From positions 1-64,000 of the forward strand of contig NZ_BOMH01000028.1 of NCBI RefSeq assembly GCF_016862095.1: a stretch of DNA of 64,000 bases, given 5' to 3'. This DNA comes from Actinoplanes cyaneus (lineage in GTDB: Bacteria > Actinomycetota > Actinomycetes > Mycobacteriales > Micromonosporaceae). The notes under the pieces were generated by a model that saw nothing but the letters and a program-made list of their open reading frames with translations, did not search any database and was not told the DNA's origin. The translations under genes were made by a program, and so were the position numbers. This document shows positions 47,951-60,309 of the stretch, piece after piece. Positions within the stretch are counted from its first letter, which is position 1, and every line of letters begins with the position of its first letter.

Positions 47951-49009
47951 TCAGCTCAGCCAGGTTGTCAGATTGTGCAGGGCCGTGCGAATCTCCGGAA
48001 CCGGGACGAACTCGCCGTCCGTGTGGGCGAGCAGCGGGTCGCCGGGCCCGTAGTTGACGGCGGGGACGCCCAGCGTCGCGAAGCGGGACACATCCGTCCA
48101 GCCCAGCTTGGCCTGCGGCTCGCGGCCGACGAGCTCGACGAACTCCTTGGCGGCCGGCTGGTCGAGGCCGGGACGCGCGCCCGGGGCCCGGTCGGTGACC
48201 TCCAGCTCGAACCCGGCGAAGACCTCGCGGAGGTGGGCCTCGGCGGCGTCGGTGTCCCGATCCGGCGCGAAACGGTAGTTCACGAAGATGGTGCACAGGT
48301 CCGGGATGACGTTGCCGGCGATCCCGCCCTCGATCTTCACCGCGTTGAGCCCCTCGTGGTACTGCAGACCGTCGACGATCGGCTGCCGCGGCTCGTAGGC
48401 CCGCAGGATGTCGAGGACCCCACCGGCCGAGTGGATCGCGTTGCTGCCACGCCACGAGCGGGCGGCGTGCGCGGCCACGCCCGGCACGGTGATCTTGACG
48501 CGCATGGTGCCCTGGCAGCCGCCCTCGACGGTGCCGTCGGACGGCTCGCCGAGGATCGCGAAGTCGCCGGCCAGCCACTCCGGATGATGGCGGACGAGAC
48601 GGCCCAGCCCGTTCAGCGCGGCGGCGACCTCCTCGTGGTCGTAGAAGACATAGGTGACGTCGTAGCGCGGCGCGGTCAGGACAGCGGCAAGCTGGAGCAT
48701 GACGGCGACGCCGGCCTTCATGTCGACGGTGCCGCGGCCGCGCAGGAGCTCACCGTCCTCGACGACCGGCAGGTTGTTCGCGATGGGCACGGTGTCGAGG
48801 TGACCGGCGAGCACCACGCGGGTCGGGCGGCCCAGCGTCGTCCGGGCGACCACGGCGTCACCGTCGCGCAGCACCTCCAGGTGGGCGAAGCCGCGCAGCG
48901 CGCTCTCGACAGCGTCGGCGAGCTGCTTCTCGTCGCCGCTGACCGAGGGGATGTCGCAGAGGACGCGGGTGAGGGCGACCACGTCGCCGGTGAGATCGAG
49001 ATCAGCCAT
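47951..49009 (-). CDS. dapE: Succinyl-diaminopimelate desuccinylase
   Basis: A 352-residue M20 metallopeptidase-fold deacylase of lysine/diaminopimelate synthesis (N-succinyl-LL-DAP to LL-DAP). Metal-ligand motifs: VLAGHLDTVPIANN, GRGTVDMKAGVAVML, FYDHEEVAAALNGLG (catalytic Glu pair) and GEPSDGTVEGGCQGTMR; the dimer domain has GVAAHAARSWRGSNAIH. The actinobacterial DapE type is likely, and ArgE is the alternative. However, argJ here makes a separate ArgE unnecessary. It is divergent from argH. Confidence 0.9.
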   Translation of the reverse strand: MADLDLTGDVVALTRVLCDIPSVSGDEKQLADAVESALRGFAHLEVLRDGDAVVARTTLGRPTRVVLAGHLDTVPIANNLPVVEDGELLRGRGTVDMKAGVAVMLQLAAVLTAPRYDVTYVFYDHEEVAAALNGLGRLVRHHPEWLAGDFAILGEPSDGTVEGGCQGTMRVKITVPGVAAHAARSWRGSNAIHSAGGVLDILRAYEPRQPIVDGLQYHEGLNAVKIEGGIAGNVIPDLCTIFVNYRFAPDRDTDAAEAHLREVFAGFELEVTDRAPGARPGLDQPAAKEFVELVGREPQAKLGWTDVSRFATLGVPAVNYGPGDPLLAHTDGEFVPVPEIRTALHNLTTWLS

Positions 49010-49131: not shown

Positions 49132-50562
49132 GTGCCGGAGAGTGACGAGCCGACCCGGCTCTGGGGTGCCCGTTTCGCCGGTGGGCCGGCGGAAGCCCTG
49201 GCCCGGCTGAGCGTCAGCGTCCAGTTCGACTGGCGGCTGGCGCCGTATGACCTGCTCGCCTCCCGGGCCCACGCCCGCGTGCTGGCCAACGCGGGCCTGC
49301 TCGACGCGGAGGAGCTGGGCAGGATGCTGGCCGCGCTCGACGACCTGGAGCAGGCGTGCGCGACCGGCGAGTTCCGCCCGACGATCGAGGACGAGGACGT
49401 CCACACCGCCCTGGAGCGCGGCCTGCTGGAGCGTCTCGGCACTCTCGGCGGCAAGCTGCGCGCCGGCCGGTCCCGCAACGACCAGGTCGCCACCGACCTG
49501 CGGCTCTACCTGCGCGATCACGCCCGCGGCGTGGCCGTTGCGCTGATCGAGCTGGCCGACGCGCTCACCGAGCAGGCGGCCCGCAACGTCGACACCCCGG
49601 CGCCCGGCATGACCCACGTGCAGCACGCCCAGCCGGTCAGTTTCGGCCACTGGCTGCTGGCGCACGTGCAGCCGCTGCTGCGCGACCTGGAGCGCCTGCG
49701 GGACTGGGACGTGCGCACCGCGATCAGCCCGCTCGGCTCCGGCGCGCTGGCCGGCTCGTCGCTCCCCCTCGACCCGGCCGCCGTCGCCAAGGAACTGGGC
49801 TTCTCCGCCCCCGCGGCGAACTCGATGGACGCCGTCGCCGACCGTGACTTCGTCGCCGAGTTCCTCTTCACCACCGCCCTGATCGGCGTCCACCTGTCCC
49901 GCCTCGGCGAGGAGGTGGTGCTCTGGACCTCCACCGAGTTCGGCTGGGTCGAGCTCGACGACGCGTTCGCCACCGGTTCGTCGATCATGCCGCAGAAGAA
50001 GAACGCGGACATCGCCGAGCTGGCCCGGGGCAAGAGCGGGCGGCTCATCGGTGGCCTGGTGGCCGTGCTGACCATGCTCAAGGGCCTCCCGTTGACGTAT
50101 GACCGGGACATGCAGGAGGACAAGGAGCCGGCCTTCGACGCGGTCGACACCCTGGAGCTGCTGCTTCCGGCGCTGGCCGGCATGATCTCCACGATGACCG
50201 TCCGGGTGGACCGCCTCGCGGCCGCCGCCCCGGTCGGCTTCTCCCTGGCCACCGAGGTCGCCGACTGGCTGGTCCGCCGGGGGGTGCCGTTCCGCGACGC
50301 CCACGAGATCACCGGCAAGCTGGTCGCCCTCTGCTCGGCGCGCGAGTGCGAGCTGGAGGATCTGACCGACGACGACCTGACGACGGTCAGCGACCACCTC
50401 GACCCGTCGGTGCGCGAGGTCCTCTCCGTCTCGTCCGCGCTGGCGGCCCGCACGACGCCGGGCTCGACCGGCCCGGGCCCGGTCCGCGATCAGCTCGCCA
50501 CCGTGCAGCACAAGCTGGACACCTGGCGGCAGTGGGCGGTCGAGAAGGCCGTTCCGCGCTGA
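49132..50562 (+). CDS. argH: Argininosuccinate lyase
   Basis: Last step of arginine synthesis: argininosuccinate to arginine and fumarate. A 476-residue fumarase-superfamily protein with the signature GSSIMPQKKNADIAEL and the conserved RSRNDQVATDLRLYLR and THVQHAQPVSFGHWLL segments. GTG start with GAGGAG 5-10 nt upstream. Unlike in many actinomycetes it is not next to argG; it lies ~2 kb past argG, on the opposite strand, divergent from dapE. Confidence 0.96.
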   Translation: MPESDEPTRLWGARFAGGPAEALARLSVSVQFDWRLAPYDLLASRAHARVLANAGLLDAEELGRMLAALDDLEQACATGEFRPTIEDEDVHTALERGLLERLGTLGGKLRAGRSRNDQVATDLRLYLRDHARGVAVALIELADALTEQAARNVDTPAPGMTHVQHAQPVSFGHWLLAHVQPLLRDLERLRDWDVRTAISPLGSGALAGSSLPLDPAAVAKELGFSAPAANSMDAVADRDFVAEFLFTTALIGVHLSRLGEEVVLWTSTEFGWVELDDAFATGSSIMPQKKNADIAELARGKSGRLIGGLVAVLTMLKGLPLTYDRDMQEDKEPAFDAVDTLELLLPALAGMISTMTVRVDRLAAAAPVGFSLATEVADWLVRRGVPFRDAHEITGKLVALCSARECELEDLTDDDLTTVSDHLDPSVREVLSVSSALAARTTPGSTGPGPVRDQLATVQHKLDTWRQWAVEKAVPR

Positions 50563-52444: not shown

Positions 52445-53683
52445 CTACTCGGCGGGGTGGGCGGCGAGGCGGGCGATGCTGCCGGGCATGGCGTACATGT
52501 GGGCGAACGCCCGGGCCTGCTCGCCGGTCCAGGCCGACGAGCCGTGGCCGTAGACGATGCCGGCGCGGGTGGCGGCGTCCAGCAGGCTGTACGGGCTCTT
52601 GCTGCCCAGCAGCACGATGGTGCCCTTGTGCAGCAGCACCCGGACGGTGCCGGTGACGCGGGTCTGGCTGGAGTCCAGGAACGCGCGGAAGTCGTCCATG
52701 ATCGGGTCGAAGTAGACGGCCTCGTGGAGCAGGTCGCCGTAGGTGTTGCCGAGCGTCGCCTTGGTCGCCTGCTGACGGTTGGAGAGGACGAGTTTCTCCA
52801 GCTCACGGTGGGCGGCGATGAGGATCAGCATGCCGGGCGCCTCGAAGCCGACGCGGGCCAGGTTGCCGACCATGGTGGAGCCCATGTGGATGCCGCGGCC
52901 GACGCCGTGCTCGCCGCCGAGGACGTTGAGCGCCTGCAGGATCGCGTAGTTCGGCGCGTCCGCCTCGACCAGCGAGTCGCCACCGGCGTAGGTGGCCGTG
53001 ACGACCTCGCCCTTCTCGAAGGTCAGGTGCAGCTCGACACCCTGGTCGGGGGCGTCGGCGATCGACCTGGTGTAGGTCCAGGCGTCCTCGGGGAGATAGT
53101 CCCAGCTCCCGTACGTCTCCTCGCCGCCGATCGAGGTGCCGATGAGCCCCTCGTTGATCGAGTACTTCTTGACCTTCTCGCTGACCGCGAAGCCCCGGCT
53201 GCGCAAGAACTCGGCCTCCTCCTCGCGGACCAGGCGCTCGTCGCGTACCGGCGTGATGATCTCCAAATGCGGCGCGAGCGCCCGGATCACCGCGTCGTAG
53301 CGGACGTGGTCGGCGCCGGCGCCGGTCGAGCCGTGCGCGACCGCGTCCGCCCCGACCTGTAGGGCGACCTCGACGACCTTCTCGGCCTGGATCAGCCGCT
53401 CGGCGCCGACACACGACGGGTAGGCACCGTTGCGCAGGTAGTTCGCCTTGATCGCGTACGTGACTACGCGGTCGTACAGCTCGGAACGCGCGTCGACGAC
53501 GTGGTGCTCGACGGCGCCCAGCTCCTCGGCGCGGGCGGACACGACCTCGGCCTCACCGCTGTGCAGGCCACCGGTGTCGATGTTGGCGGTCACCACGTCC
53601 CAGCCCTTCTCGCGGAAGTCCACGAGGGCGTACGAGGTGTCCAGCCCACCGGAGAAGGCGAGAACGATCTTGCGCTTGGTCAT
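52445..53683 (-). CDS. argG: Argininosuccinate synthase
   Basis: Joins citrulline and aspartate (ATP-dependent) in arginine synthesis. A 412-residue protein with the N-type PP-loop FSGGLDTSYALV at residue ~10 and the conserved AHGSTGAGADHVRYD and NIDTGG-type segments. Its start overlaps the upstream unknown gene by 4 bp. It is the last gene of the arg block, before a cluster of palindromes. Confidence 0.96.
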   Translation of the reverse strand: MTKRKIVLAFSGGLDTSYALVDFREKGWDVVTANIDTGGLHSGEAEVVSARAEELGAVEHHVVDARSELYDRVVTYAIKANYLRNGAYPSCVGAERLIQAEKVVEVALQVGADAVAHGSTGAGADHVRYDAVIRALAPHLEIITPVRDERLVREEEAEFLRSRGFAVSEKVKKYSINEGLIGTSIGGEETYGSWDYLPEDAWTYTRSIADAPDQGVELHLTFEKGEVVTATYAGGDSLVEADAPNYAILQALNVLGGEHGVGRGIHMGSTMVGNLARVGFEAPGMLILIAAHRELEKLVLSNRQQATKATLGNTYGDLLHEAVYFDPIMDDFRAFLDSSQTRVTGTVRVLLHKGTIVLLGSKSPYSLLDAATRAGIVYGHGSSAWTGEQARAFAHMYAMPGSIARLAAHPAE

Positions 53684-54576
53684 CGGGACAGTTCCTTCTG
53701 GAGAATCGGCACGTACGTCTTCCCGTCCTGGCGGACGTGGCCGGGCGGCAGGACATAGAACTCACAGTCCCCCGCCTCAATGGCCTTCTGCATCGTCTGC
53801 TGCCGTTCGTAGTCGAACGGGTCGAGCAGGAACGAAGGCTCGGGAAGCACCGCGCCGGCGGGCAGGGTGAGGTCGGACTGGTAGACGAACGAGCCCGGCG
53901 AGGTGTGGAACGGGACGGTCGCGACCAGGACCTTCAGCGCGCCGAACTCGGTGTGGACCTTCAGCGCGCTGTTGTCGTACTGGGTGACGCCGTCGAGCTT
54001 CTGCGCCCGGTACGCCGAGAGCGCGAGCGCCTTGGCCGCCTTGCCCAGCCCGACCGCCGGCATCAGCGACCACAGTGACCAGCCGACCCAGCGGCCGGGC
54101 TCGGCCGAGGGCGCCGCGCAGTACCCGCCGACCGGCACCGGCCCGGTGTACCCGCTGGCCCGCATGTCCTCCTGCACCTTGCGCAGCAGCTGCTTGACGT
54201 CGGTGTCGAAGCGGAACGTGGACCGCTCGACCATCGCCGCGAACTCCTGCTGCGGCAGGCTCGCGATCAGCGCCGCGGCCGGCATCAGGATCAGGTCGAC
54301 CATCACCCACTGCGGCATCGGGATGCCCCGGTCACCGAACGCGATGCCGTTGATCACGTTGAACAGGTTCAGGAACTCCCGGACCGACCAGTCGCGCTCG
54401 GACGTGTCGGTGAAGTCGAGCCAGTTCAGCTTGTAGCCGTACGGGAGCTCGTTGAGCTGCGGCCGGACCGTCTCGTTCGAGGCGAGGAAGAACTCCACGC
54501 CGAGCCCGGCGAGCTTGCCGGTGTGATCGGCGAAATCCGGGAACCGGGTCTCCACCGAGGGCGGGAAGATGGTCAT
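53680..54576 (-). CDS. Unrecognised protein inside the arg operon
   Basis: A 298-residue soluble protein, no signal or clear membrane segment. It has two distinctive stretches: [20 protein letters not shown] at residues ~43-62, and [20 protein letters not shown] in the C-terminal half, near [20 protein letters not shown]. No family was recognised. It overlaps argR by 4 bp at its start and argG by 4 bp at its end (ATGA at both), so translation is coupled on both sides. A role connected with arginine synthesis or ArgR is suggested only by position. It may instead be a recent insertion. Confidence 0.8.
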
Positions 54577-55073
54577 CGGTCCTCCAGGTTGTTGTCCGCC
54601 CGGCTCCAGTTGTCGAGCTTCGCGGCGAGGGCGGCGCCCGACGTGGGCCCGGCGTCACGGGCCACGACGAGGATGGTGTCGTCGCCGGCGATGGTGCCGA
54701 CCACGTCCGAGAGCCCGGAGCGGTCCAACGCGCTGGCCAGGAACTGCGCGGCGCCGGGCGGCGTGCGCAGGACCGCGATGTTGCCGCTCGAGTCGACACC
54801 CGTCAACAGTTCCCGCAGCAGCCGGATCAGCCGGGCCGGGCCCTGACCGGTGGTCTCGCGCAACGGCCGTTTGCCGTCCTCGGGGATCAGGTAGGCGCCG
54901 CTGACCTTGACCGCGTTCAGCTCCTCCAGGTCGCGGGAGAGCGTCGCCTGGGTGACCTGCACGCCTTCGGCGGCGAGCAGGTCGGCCAGTTCGGTCTGGG
55001 AGTGCACAGTGCGGCTCCGGATCAGCTCCACGATCCGGGCGTGCCGCCCCGCGCGTGTGACCGGAGAGCTCAT
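54573..55073 (-). CDS. argR: Arginine repressor
   Basis: A 166-residue ArgR. The N-terminal winged helix ([38 protein letters not shown]) is followed by the oligomerisation and arginine-binding domain ([37 protein letters not shown]). It would repress the arg genes when arginine is plentiful. Its place inside the block points to self-regulation. It starts 73 bp after argF; ARG-box-like elements lie near argC and argH. Confidence 0.94.
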
Positions 55074-55146
55074 CGCGCCGCCCCGCTTCGCTCCGCGCCG
55101 GGACGAGCCTGGAAACCGAGCCCGATGACGGGCTCCCCGCCGCCGC

Positions 55147-58089
<2,943 letters not shown>

Positions 58090-58093
<4 letters not shown>

Positions 58094-59259
58094 GAGGAGT
58101 ACGCCGAGTTCTCGTGGACGTAGGCGTGCGAGAGATCCGTGGTCCAGATGGTCGCGCTCATCTCGCCCTCGCGCAGGTTGACCACCACCTTGACGTCGCG
58201 CCCGGAGAGGTCGACCTTCGTCCGGTCCTCGGCCGCGGCGCCGTTCTTGCACACCCAGACGCCGTTGATCGCGACGTCGATCCGGTCCGGCTCGAAGGCG
58301 GCCGACGTGGTGCCGACCGCGGCGAGGATCCGGCCCCAGTTCGGGTCGTTGCCGAAGAACGCCGTCTTCACCAGGTTGTTTCCGGCGATCGAGCGGCCCA
58401 CCTGCACCGCGTCAGCCTCGCTCGCGGCGCCGGCCACCTCGATGGCGATGTGCTTGGTGGCGCCCTCGGCGTCGGCGATCAGCTGCTGGGCCAGGTCGTG
58501 GCACACCTCGGTGACCGCGGCGGTCAGCTCGGCGAGCGTGGGCTGCCGGTCCGAGGCGCCGCTGGCCAGCAGCAGCACGGTGTCGTTCGTCGACATGCAG
58601 CCGTCGGCGTCGATGCGGTCGAAGGTGACCCGGGTGGCCGCGCGCAGCGCCGCGTCGAGGGTCTCGTTGTCCGCCGAGGCGTCCGTGGTGATCACCACGA
58701 GCATGGTGGCCAGGGCCGGGGCGAGCATGCCGGCGCCCTTGGCGATGCCGCCGACCGACCAGCCGTCGCGCTGGGCGACCGCGTTCTTGGCCACCGTGTC
58801 GGTGGTCATGATCGCCTCGGCCGCCCTCGGGCCGCCGTCCGCGGACAGGGCCTTGACCGCGGCGTTCACGCCCGGGAGCAGTTTGCCCATCGGGAGCAGC
58901 TCGCCGATCAGGCCGGTCGAGCAGACCGCGATGTCACCGGGGCCGATCATCAGCTTCCGCGCCGAGCGCAGCACCGACGCGGTGTGCTCGGCGGTGGCGT
59001 GCGTGTCGCGGAAACCCTGCGAGCCGGTGCACGCGTTCGCGCCGCCGGAGTTGAGGACGACCGCGCGGATCACGCCGCCCTTGAGCACCTGCTGGCTCCA
59101 CAGCACCGGCGCGGCCTTGACGCGGTTGCCGGTGAAGACGGCGGCGGCGGTGTAGTCGGGGCCGTCGTTGACGACCAGGGCGACATCGGGGTTCCCACTG
59201 GTCTTGAGCCCGGCGGCGACGCCGGAAGCCTTGAAGCCCTTGGGATGGGTGACGGTCAC
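58090..59259 (-). CDS. argJ: Glutamate N-acetyltransferase / amino-acid acetyltransferase
   Basis: Recycles the acetyl group from acetylornithine to glutamate, and may also start the pathway from acetyl-CoA. 389 residues. ArgJ cleaves itself before a Thr in [16 protein letters not shown], visible here as [17 protein letters not shown] and the C-terminal [16 protein letters not shown] are conserved. GTG start overlapping argC by 4 bp. Confidence 0.96.
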
Positions 59260-60257
59260 GGGGCCACTCCGAAGACGCTGAGGCCGGCCGTCTCGGGCAG
59301 GCCGACCATGATGTTGGCGTTCTGCACCGCCTGGCCGGCGGCGCCCTTGCCGAGGTTGTCGAGCGCGCTGACCACGATGATGCGGCCCGAGTCGACATCG
59401 ACGGTGGCTTGCAGGTGGCACGAGTTGGAACCGGCGGTGGCGGCGGTGTGCGGCCAGACGCCCTCGGGCAGGACGTGGATGAACGGCTCCTGCGCATACG
59501 CCGCCTGCAGCGCCTCGCGCGGGTCGCCGCCGTTGAGCCGCCTCGCCGTGATCGTCGCCAGGATGCCGCGCGGCATCGGCGCCAGGATCGGGGTCATCGA
59601 CAGCGACGCGGCGCCGGTGGCCTGCTTGATCTCGGCGACGTGCTGGTGCGCCCCCACCTTGTAGGGCGACAGGTCACCCATGATCTCGCTGGCCAGCAGG
59701 TTCACCCTGGCGTTGCGCCCCGCGCCGGACGTGCCGGAGCTGGCCACCACGACCACGTCCTCCGGGTCGGCCACGCCGGAGGCGATCAGCGGGGCGAGGG
59801 CCAGGATGATCGTGGCCGCATAACAACCCGTGTTGGCCACCCGGTCGGAGGCCTTGATCGCCTCCCGGGCGCCGGGCAGCTCGGGCAGCCCATAGGTCCA
59901 CGTGCCGGCGTGGCCGCCGCCGTAATACCGCGTCCACTGCTCGGCGCTCTCCAGCCGGAAGTCGGCGCCCAGGTCGACGACCTTAACCCCGGCCGGCAAC
60001 TGGGCCGCGACCGCACCCGACTGCCCGTGCGGCAGGGCCAGGAAGACCAGGTCAGCCTCACCGAGCGTGGCCGCGTCGGTGGTGCCGAGGGTCAGGTCGA
60101 GCCCGGCCAGCTGAGGGTGCACGGACGTCACGTGCTGACCGGCCTGACTGTGCGCGGTCGCCGCGATCAGGTCGAACCCGGGGTGGCCGGCCAGCAGGCG
60201 CAGCAACTCCCCGCCCGCGTAACCACTTGCCCCGGCGACCGCTACCCGGACTCCCAT
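59256..60257 (-). CDS. argC: N-acetyl-gamma-glutamyl-phosphate reductase
   Basis: NADPH-dependent reductase forming N-acetylglutamate semialdehyde. 333 residues. Rossmann GASGYAGGELLRLL, catalytic Cys in VANTGCYATII, and GTSGAGRNARVN are present. The start at ATG 60257 follows GGAGGTAGG; a 10-codon longer form starts inside the regulatory region. First gene of the arg block. Confidence 0.96.
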   Translation of the reverse strand: MGVRVAVAGASGYAGGELLRLLAGHPGFDLIAATAHSQAGQHVTSVHPQLAGLDLTLGTTDAATLGEADLVFLALPHGQSGAVAAQLPAGVKVVDLGADFRLESAEQWTRYYGGGHAGTWTYGLPELPGAREAIKASDRVANTGCYAATIILALAPLIASGVADPEDVVVVASSGTSGAGRNARVNLLASEIMGDLSPYKVGAHQHVAEIKQATGAASLSMTPILAPMPRGILATITARRLNGGDPREALQAAYAQEPFIHVLPEGVWPHTAATAGSNSCHLQATVDVDSGRIIVVSALDNLGKGAAGQAVQNANIMVGLPETAGLSVFGVAP

Positions 60258-60268
60258 AAGAACACCTA

Positions 60269-60309
60269 CCTCCGCATGACTATGCAAAGAACCGTATCAA
60301 CTCGCATAG
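60269..60309 (-). promoter_or_regulatory. ARG-box-like region before argC
   Basis: GCAT-GACT-ATGC (60274-60285) is a perfect dyad with the 4-nt centre of an ARG box. CTATGC (60280-60285) and GCATAG (60304-60309) form a second, wider inverted repeat. The region lies 12-52 bp upstream of the argC start. A second box at 21-bp spacing is degenerate. Confidence 0.55.

Follow-up and report, generated by a model that had tools for sequence, protein, structure and literature searches.

Gene X and its place in the arginine locus

The window, that is, the whole 64,000-nt stretch of Actinoplanes cyaneus DNA analysed here, contains a block of arginine genes (Table 1) in which an ORF of no recognised family, here called X, stands between argR and an argG that we refer to as argG2. 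X is read from an ATG start codon, encodes 298 amino acids followed by a stop codon, and shares an ATGA with each of its neighbours (54576-54573 with argR, 53683-53680 with argG2); an earlier note on this DNA had described a 298-residue protein locked between argR and argG by such overlaps, and both were located. The same note had called argC, argJ, argB, argD, argF and argR standard, and all six match Pfam/NCBIfam models. The true start of argF probably lies near 56076, since its domain starts only near residue 106. Neither argH nor the dapE-like gene beside it figures in the note, which also remarks nothing particular about argG. argH runs opposite to the other arg genes of the block in the window genome and in L099, and is co-directional with argG2 in the other X loci of named genomes that reach argH. 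The window genome also has a second ArgG-like gene (L216:6865-7938; G000:C75), whose nearest model is argG_rel, below its cut-off.

Table 1. Features of the arginine locus in the window, with the basis of each assignment
Feature	Coordinates	Strand	Basis and remarks
M20 deacylase, dapE type, adjoins argH	47951..49009	-	orthologue in L104 matches TIGR01900 with 522 bits; putative role
argH, argininosuccinate lyase	49132..50562	+	opposite strand in window genome
argG2, argininosuccinate synthase of Bacteroidota type, altered substrate pocket	52445..53683	-	TIGR00032, tree, residues
X, unrecognised family, translationally coupled on both sides	53680..54576	-	ORF and family searches
argR, arginine repressor	54573..55229	-	Pfam/NCBIfam; longest ORF, true start uncertain
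argF, ornithine carbamoyltransferase	55147..56391	-	longest ORF; TIGR00658, 365 bits, over cut-off
argD	56076..57350	-	longest ORF; family model
argB	57227..58252	-	longest ORF; family model
argJ, bifunctional by model name	58090..59421	-	longest ORF; family model
argC	59256..60287	-	longest ORF; TIGR01850, 364 bits

X was present in 46 of the 67 genomes of Actinoplanes sensu lato (Actinoplanes, Paractinoplanes, Winogradskya, Amorphoplanes, Couchioplanes and others). A. rectilineatus (L108) is a further named genome with X outside these 46; the scan of the named genomes' contigs used strict peptide patterns, by which only close relatives are detectable. None of the matches in the 46 genomes has an internal stop (a seeming split of X in G032 comes from a stretch of N in its assembly), the 28 of the 46 orthologues that were aligned are 66-95% identical to the window protein, and dN/dS lies between 0.09 and 0.34 (15 pairs of 6 sequences), from which X is under purifying selection. 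Given these homologues, uninterrupted frames, identities and dN/dS values, X is a real gene, with a product of about 291-300 amino acids. As the earlier note had stated, it belongs to no recognised family: there was no match at E <= 1 in Pfam and NCBIfam, a single weak match in PHROGs to a PHROG of unknown function (E 0.15), nothing significant among PDB sequences (best E 0.42), and nothing but weak single-member matches when the 28 orthologues were compared with Pfam. Nor was gene X found in the available literature on Actinoplanes argininosuccinate synthase, argG and argR. As judged by its sequence, X is a new protein family, so far represented in one genus and one distant genome.

The distant member, X', came from a profile search of 346 genomes in which two gave a match, the window's own and G534 (E 1e-14). 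In G534, which belongs to another actinobacterial class and measures 1.8 Mb, argG (410 aa) is followed by argH and then by X' (273 aa), which overlaps argH by 8 nt; argF, over its family cut-off, lies elsewhere in that genome. X and X' are 29% identical over 204 alignment columns (E 5e-16). Since X' is adjacent to arg genes in G534 too, the arg link is present in two far-apart lineages. Among the residues invariant between X and X' are Asp82, Asp94, Ser157, Ser167, Lys182, Ser187, Tyr189, Gln199, His208, Thr209 and His224, which would be in keeping with an enzyme or a binding site. Beyond these lineages the searches were negative: X' occurred only in G534 among 58 genomes of its order and in 1 of 296 genomes of its class sample, the drawn, partly overlapping samples of phylum, order and classes gave homologues only in G534 and the window's own genome, plasmids had no match to X or X', phages none to X', and viral contigs no homologue. 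A weak match (G008:C23) was not recovered by tblastn at 1e-4.

A divergent ArgG with an altered substrate pocket

The window ArgG2 passes the cut-off of the argininosuccinate synthase family (TIGR00032, 287.6 versus 268.2 bits). Copies in 6 of the 46 X genomes fall just under it, and the ArgG2 of G032 is split by an assembly gap into two pieces that are both under the cut-off. In an 85-row ArgG tree, for which the tree program flagged meeting long branches, ArgG2 (15 rows) grouped with the ArgG of G534 and six Bacteroidota ArgGs, all from plasmid records, with support of 100/97; together with one Xanthomonas sequence this clade reached 100/100, apart from the canonical actinobacterial ArgG. 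Scores against ArgG2 run the same way: the ArgG of G534 reached 291 bits as opposed to at most 227 bits for the other 28 non-own matches listed in the sample, and the six Bacteroidota ArgGs 260-283 bits as opposed to at most 237 for the other 25 plasmid records. Identity alone is a poor means of separating ArgG types, as it amounts to 42% with G534, 35-40% with the other actinobacterial ArgGs listed (212-226 bits) and 32-33% with the canonical ArgG of Actinoplanes sensu lato; shared residue changes are the clearest sign. By these signs the window argG differs from canonical actinobacterial argG and is of a Bacteroidota-like type.

We placed the numbering of human argininosuccinate synthase on the ArgG sequences by motif. 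The P-loop AFSGGLDTS is kept in 46/46 X genomes, and Tyr87, Thr119, Asp124, Arg127 and Ser180 are kept in all 15 ArgG2 rows. The same 15 rows, however, all carry Lys121->Ala, Asn123->Ala, Asp182->Asn, Glu191->Gly, Glu270->Gly and Tyr282->Phe, six positions at which the ordinary ArgGs (62/62 in the 85-row alignment) keep the residue. Across all 46 X genomes the motifs around 87-92, 121-125, 270 and 282 do not vary, except for V/I before GR in five, and those that contain positions 123 and 270 are altered in every one of the 46. Five of the changes (Lys121, Asp182, Glu191, Glu270 and Tyr282) extend to all 23 rows of ArgG2, G534, Bacteroidota and Xanthomonas, with replacements that are not always identical in the last three. 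Asn123 is kept in all 70 non-ArgG2 rows, including G534, the six Bacteroidota and Xanthomonas, and its loss is thus restricted, among the 85 rows, to ArgG2. In the part available of a study of the human enzyme, Asn123, Glu191 and Glu270 are described as contacts with the substrates at which substitution is especially poorly tolerated (PMC13289927); names of the human motifs are also given in the available text of PMC7601404.

The role of the Bacteroidota protein BT3760 in arginine synthesis is backed by genetic data, according to the accessible part of the GapMind work (PMC7311316). Since Bacteroidota ArgG has the five pocket losses, X was not seen in the six Bacteroidota loci, and these BT3760 data exist, the five losses need no X. 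The pocket remodelling common to loci L130, L176 and the Bacteroidota loci L169-L174 (Xanthomonas, Bacteroidota and G534) was noted as a feature of its own, and the five-residue change would be worth relating to the N-acylated pathways of Xanthomonas and Bacteroidota.

Linkage of X to argG2

With the window ArgG as query, a match at E <= 1e-80 was obtained in 46 of the 67 genomes, exactly those with X, while the 21 X-less genomes all have other ArgGs. In 46/46 X loci the distance between the end of X and the start of argG2 is -4 to +42 nt, and 45 of them have a potential start codon for X no further than 80 nt from the argR stop codon. This co-occurrence suggests that X and ArgG2 work as a pair. 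Furthermore, in 38 of the 46 X genomes ArgG2 is the one ArgG match above 30 bits, so it is presumably the working enzyme by which they make arginine.

The X-less genomes reveal what else may occupy the place. In 13 of the 20 that were fetched, canonical ArgG follows argR directly; this canonical argCJBDFR-argG-argH arrangement shares locus and flanks with the window, yet it lacks X and its ArgG is the type that is only 32-33% identical to ArgG2. In the other seven, argR is followed by argH without an intact argG between them, although a C-terminal piece of canonical argG remains in one (L059), and the 21st X-less genome (G003) likewise has argR, then argH, and no canonical argG at that place. 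The ArgGs of these eight genomes are encoded elsewhere and form one separate tree branch, of which the sole member compared with the PDB (L085) best matched the E. coli-type structures 5us8 and 1k92; the corresponding loci are L085-L088 and L090-L093, and L049, L051, L056, L059, L062, L064, L065 and L213.

A tree built from argB/D/F for 48 genomes, 28 of them with X and 20 without, requires the X label to change five times, and five changes are also forced by its well-supported branches, with the caveat that argB/D/F can themselves recombine. These changes indicate that X and argG2 were repeatedly gained or lost as one unit at the same place. Distances between X sequences follow those of argF (0.88) slightly better than those of argG2 (0.86).

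Operons can carry unrelated genes, and X might be a passenger whose role lies outside arginine synthesis and whose coupling to argG2 came about by chance, which would agree with its lack of a detectable family. Throughout the 67 genomes, however, X never occurs without argG2, the two are gained or lost together, and the distant X' is arg-linked as well; we thus regard a passenger as improbable.

The earlier note had suggested either a new arginine-pathway accessory or a partner of ArgR. The first part stood, with coupling to argG2 in 46/46 loci, argR upstream and an arg-linked X'. The second was not supported and was rejected: argR occurs in 67/67 genomes irrespective of X, and X' lies beside argH instead of argR. 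X tracks one ArgG type, not ArgR, and the order argR-X is explained by the native argFR-GH order. The note had also asked for the argR-X-argG order across Micromonosporaceae, which proved not to be conserved (of the 44 genera in a family sample of 300 genomes, one has X); strain-specificity with scattered homologues free of any arg link, which it had named as speaking against such a role, was not seen.

X as a possible partner, acyltransferase or substrate modifier

A further suggestion comes from the neighbourhood of the related ArgGs. In Bacteroidota, a gene for a GNAT precedes argG directly in 4/4 annotated plasmid records, and the same layout was read from ORFs in two unannotated ones. X would thus be akin to the GNAT of this arrangement (the BT3761-BT3760 type) in standing just ahead of an ArgG that belongs to the same subfamily and, with regard to the two of the four records, both from Bacteroidales, in which argR precedes the GNAT, directly after argR. 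Unlike X, which has about 291-300 residues and for which no significant relation was found, the Bacteroidota GNAT is recognisable and has 185-231; its ArgG, moreover, keeps the Asn123 that ArgG2 is without. The BT3761 GNAT is probably an N-succinylglutamate synthase that takes part in arginine synthesis, as given in the GapMind account to the extent available (PMC7311316), and in Caldithrix, in the accessible portion of its description, the same kind of enzyme comes first in argAGCBEH, again right before argG (PMC5317091). X could accordingly be a diverged GNAT N-acylglutamate synthase resembling BT3761 that supplies the first step of the pathway alongside ArgJ and was simply transferred together with argG2.

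Several observations bear on such a descent. By eye, the predicted order of strands and helices in the C-terminal half of X is like that of a GNAT, and the best profile alignment of X with the Bacteroidota GNATs places GLGK over GLGK. The profile-profile comparison (hhalign) was nevertheless not significant (P 0.055, probability 1%): scores as high were given by 6 of 150 column shuffles for whole X and 7 of 150 for the C-terminal half, and the first 60 shuffles reached 25.9 versus the observed 19.7. When profiles were ranked against 4249 ORFs from the loci, that of X reached one GNAT, at no better than E 46, and X was absent among the best 30 rows for the GNAT profile. No match to the Pfam GNAT models was obtained for X, the 28 orthologues, X fragments or X'. 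The acyl-CoA loop motif of GNATs is Q/R-x-x-G-x-G/A; X has an invariant G176-x-G178, shared by X', without Q/R three residues upstream. AlphaFold models of X (two runs of 29 sequences each) had pLDDT values of 47.5 and 49.7, too poor for a fold call, and Foldseek with such a model gave no match at E <= 0.001 and 55 at E <= 10, with a few acetyltransferases and many other folds. GNAT homology, seen by eye and by synteny, was therefore unsupported by profile-profile comparison, shuffles, HMM ranking and Pfam searches with fragments, and X is possibly a diverged GNAT. As for the synthase function, argJ is present in 48/48 loci checked, so that an extra N-acetylglutamate synthase should not be needed, and the exact linkage to ArgG2 would be left unexplained; we consider this explanation unlikely. 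A substitute for a lost ArgJ was ruled out by the same 48 loci.

A different enzymatic scenario draws on the gene next to argH. A DapE-like gene adjoins argH in 31 of the 32 X genomes examined (27 loci of named genomes, the window, G010, G031 and G055, with G213 as the exception; G043 was left out since its contig ends). In 29 of those 31 it separates argG2 from argH; in the other two, the window and L099, it follows beyond the inverted argH. It was found in 0/21 X-less genomes within the 12-19 kb after argH, and it may be either a lysine gene or an arg-linked copy. Hence X might acylate citrulline, ArgG2 use the acylated substrate and the DapE-like M20 deacylase remove the acyl group, which would be in line with the loss of Glu191 and Glu270 in ArgG2, as in the Xanthomonas and Bacteroidota ArgGs. 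Their clusters include annotated N-acetylornithine carbamoyltransferase genes, or succinylated intermediates are described for them in the accessible part of the GapMind work (PMC7311316). In one X. sacchari plasmid record, for instance, an ArgG without Lys121, Glu191 and Glu270 is adjoined by a GNAT; there, in contrast to the window, the GNAT is downstream of argG and an N-acetylornithine carbamoyltransferase is upstream, whereas the window argF is an ordinary ornithine carbamoyltransferase. Moreover, ArgH is of one type with and without X (551-569 bits) and should thus take ordinary argininosuccinate, GapMind, in its available text, puts deacylation at citrulline and before ArgG (PMC7311316), G213 has X-argG2 but no DapE-like gene within about 45 kb around X, and the gene may simply be the lysine dapE. 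Altogether, we find acylation of citrulline by X very improbable.

The reading that we favour, tentatively and at slightly less than even chances, is that X serves ArgG2 as a dedicated partner at the step catalysed by argininosuccinate synthase. In much of Actinoplanes sensu lato, X and argG2 would form a two-gene cassette that occupies the site between argR and argH in place of the ordinary argG, and X would act in the conversion of citrulline to argininosuccinate, either as a second subunit or activator that compensates for the pocket residues absent from ArgG2, or as an enzyme serving ArgG2. It may descend from, or substitute for, the GNAT that precedes argG in Bacteroidota, which is plausible from its position and predicted secondary-structure order. 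The simplest reason for the strict linkage would be, we infer, that ArgG2 needs a helper. In favour of such a partner are the exact co-occurrence, the tight coupling, the joint gain and loss, the Bacteroidota-like ArgG2 and its altered pocket. Against it, the co-occurrence comes from one genus and one distant genome, and the specific loss is that of Asn123 only, yet G534, which has X', keeps Asn123. The stricter version, in which X and ArgG2 constitute a two-component argininosuccinate synthase and ArgG2, having lost Asn123, which touches both substrates in the human enzyme, and the two glutamates that bind citrulline, works only with X, which supplies a pocket function or prepares the substrate, seems to us rather doubtful.

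Among the enzymes of amino acid metabolism, argininosuccinate synthase is very conserved, and in humans it is linked to disease. If X is indeed its partner in these bacteria, an active site can be rebuilt with a partner despite the loss of contacts reported as intolerant to substitution in the human enzyme, and the uncharacterised X family would gain a testable job. For Actinoplanes sensu lato, at least three kinds of argG replace one another.
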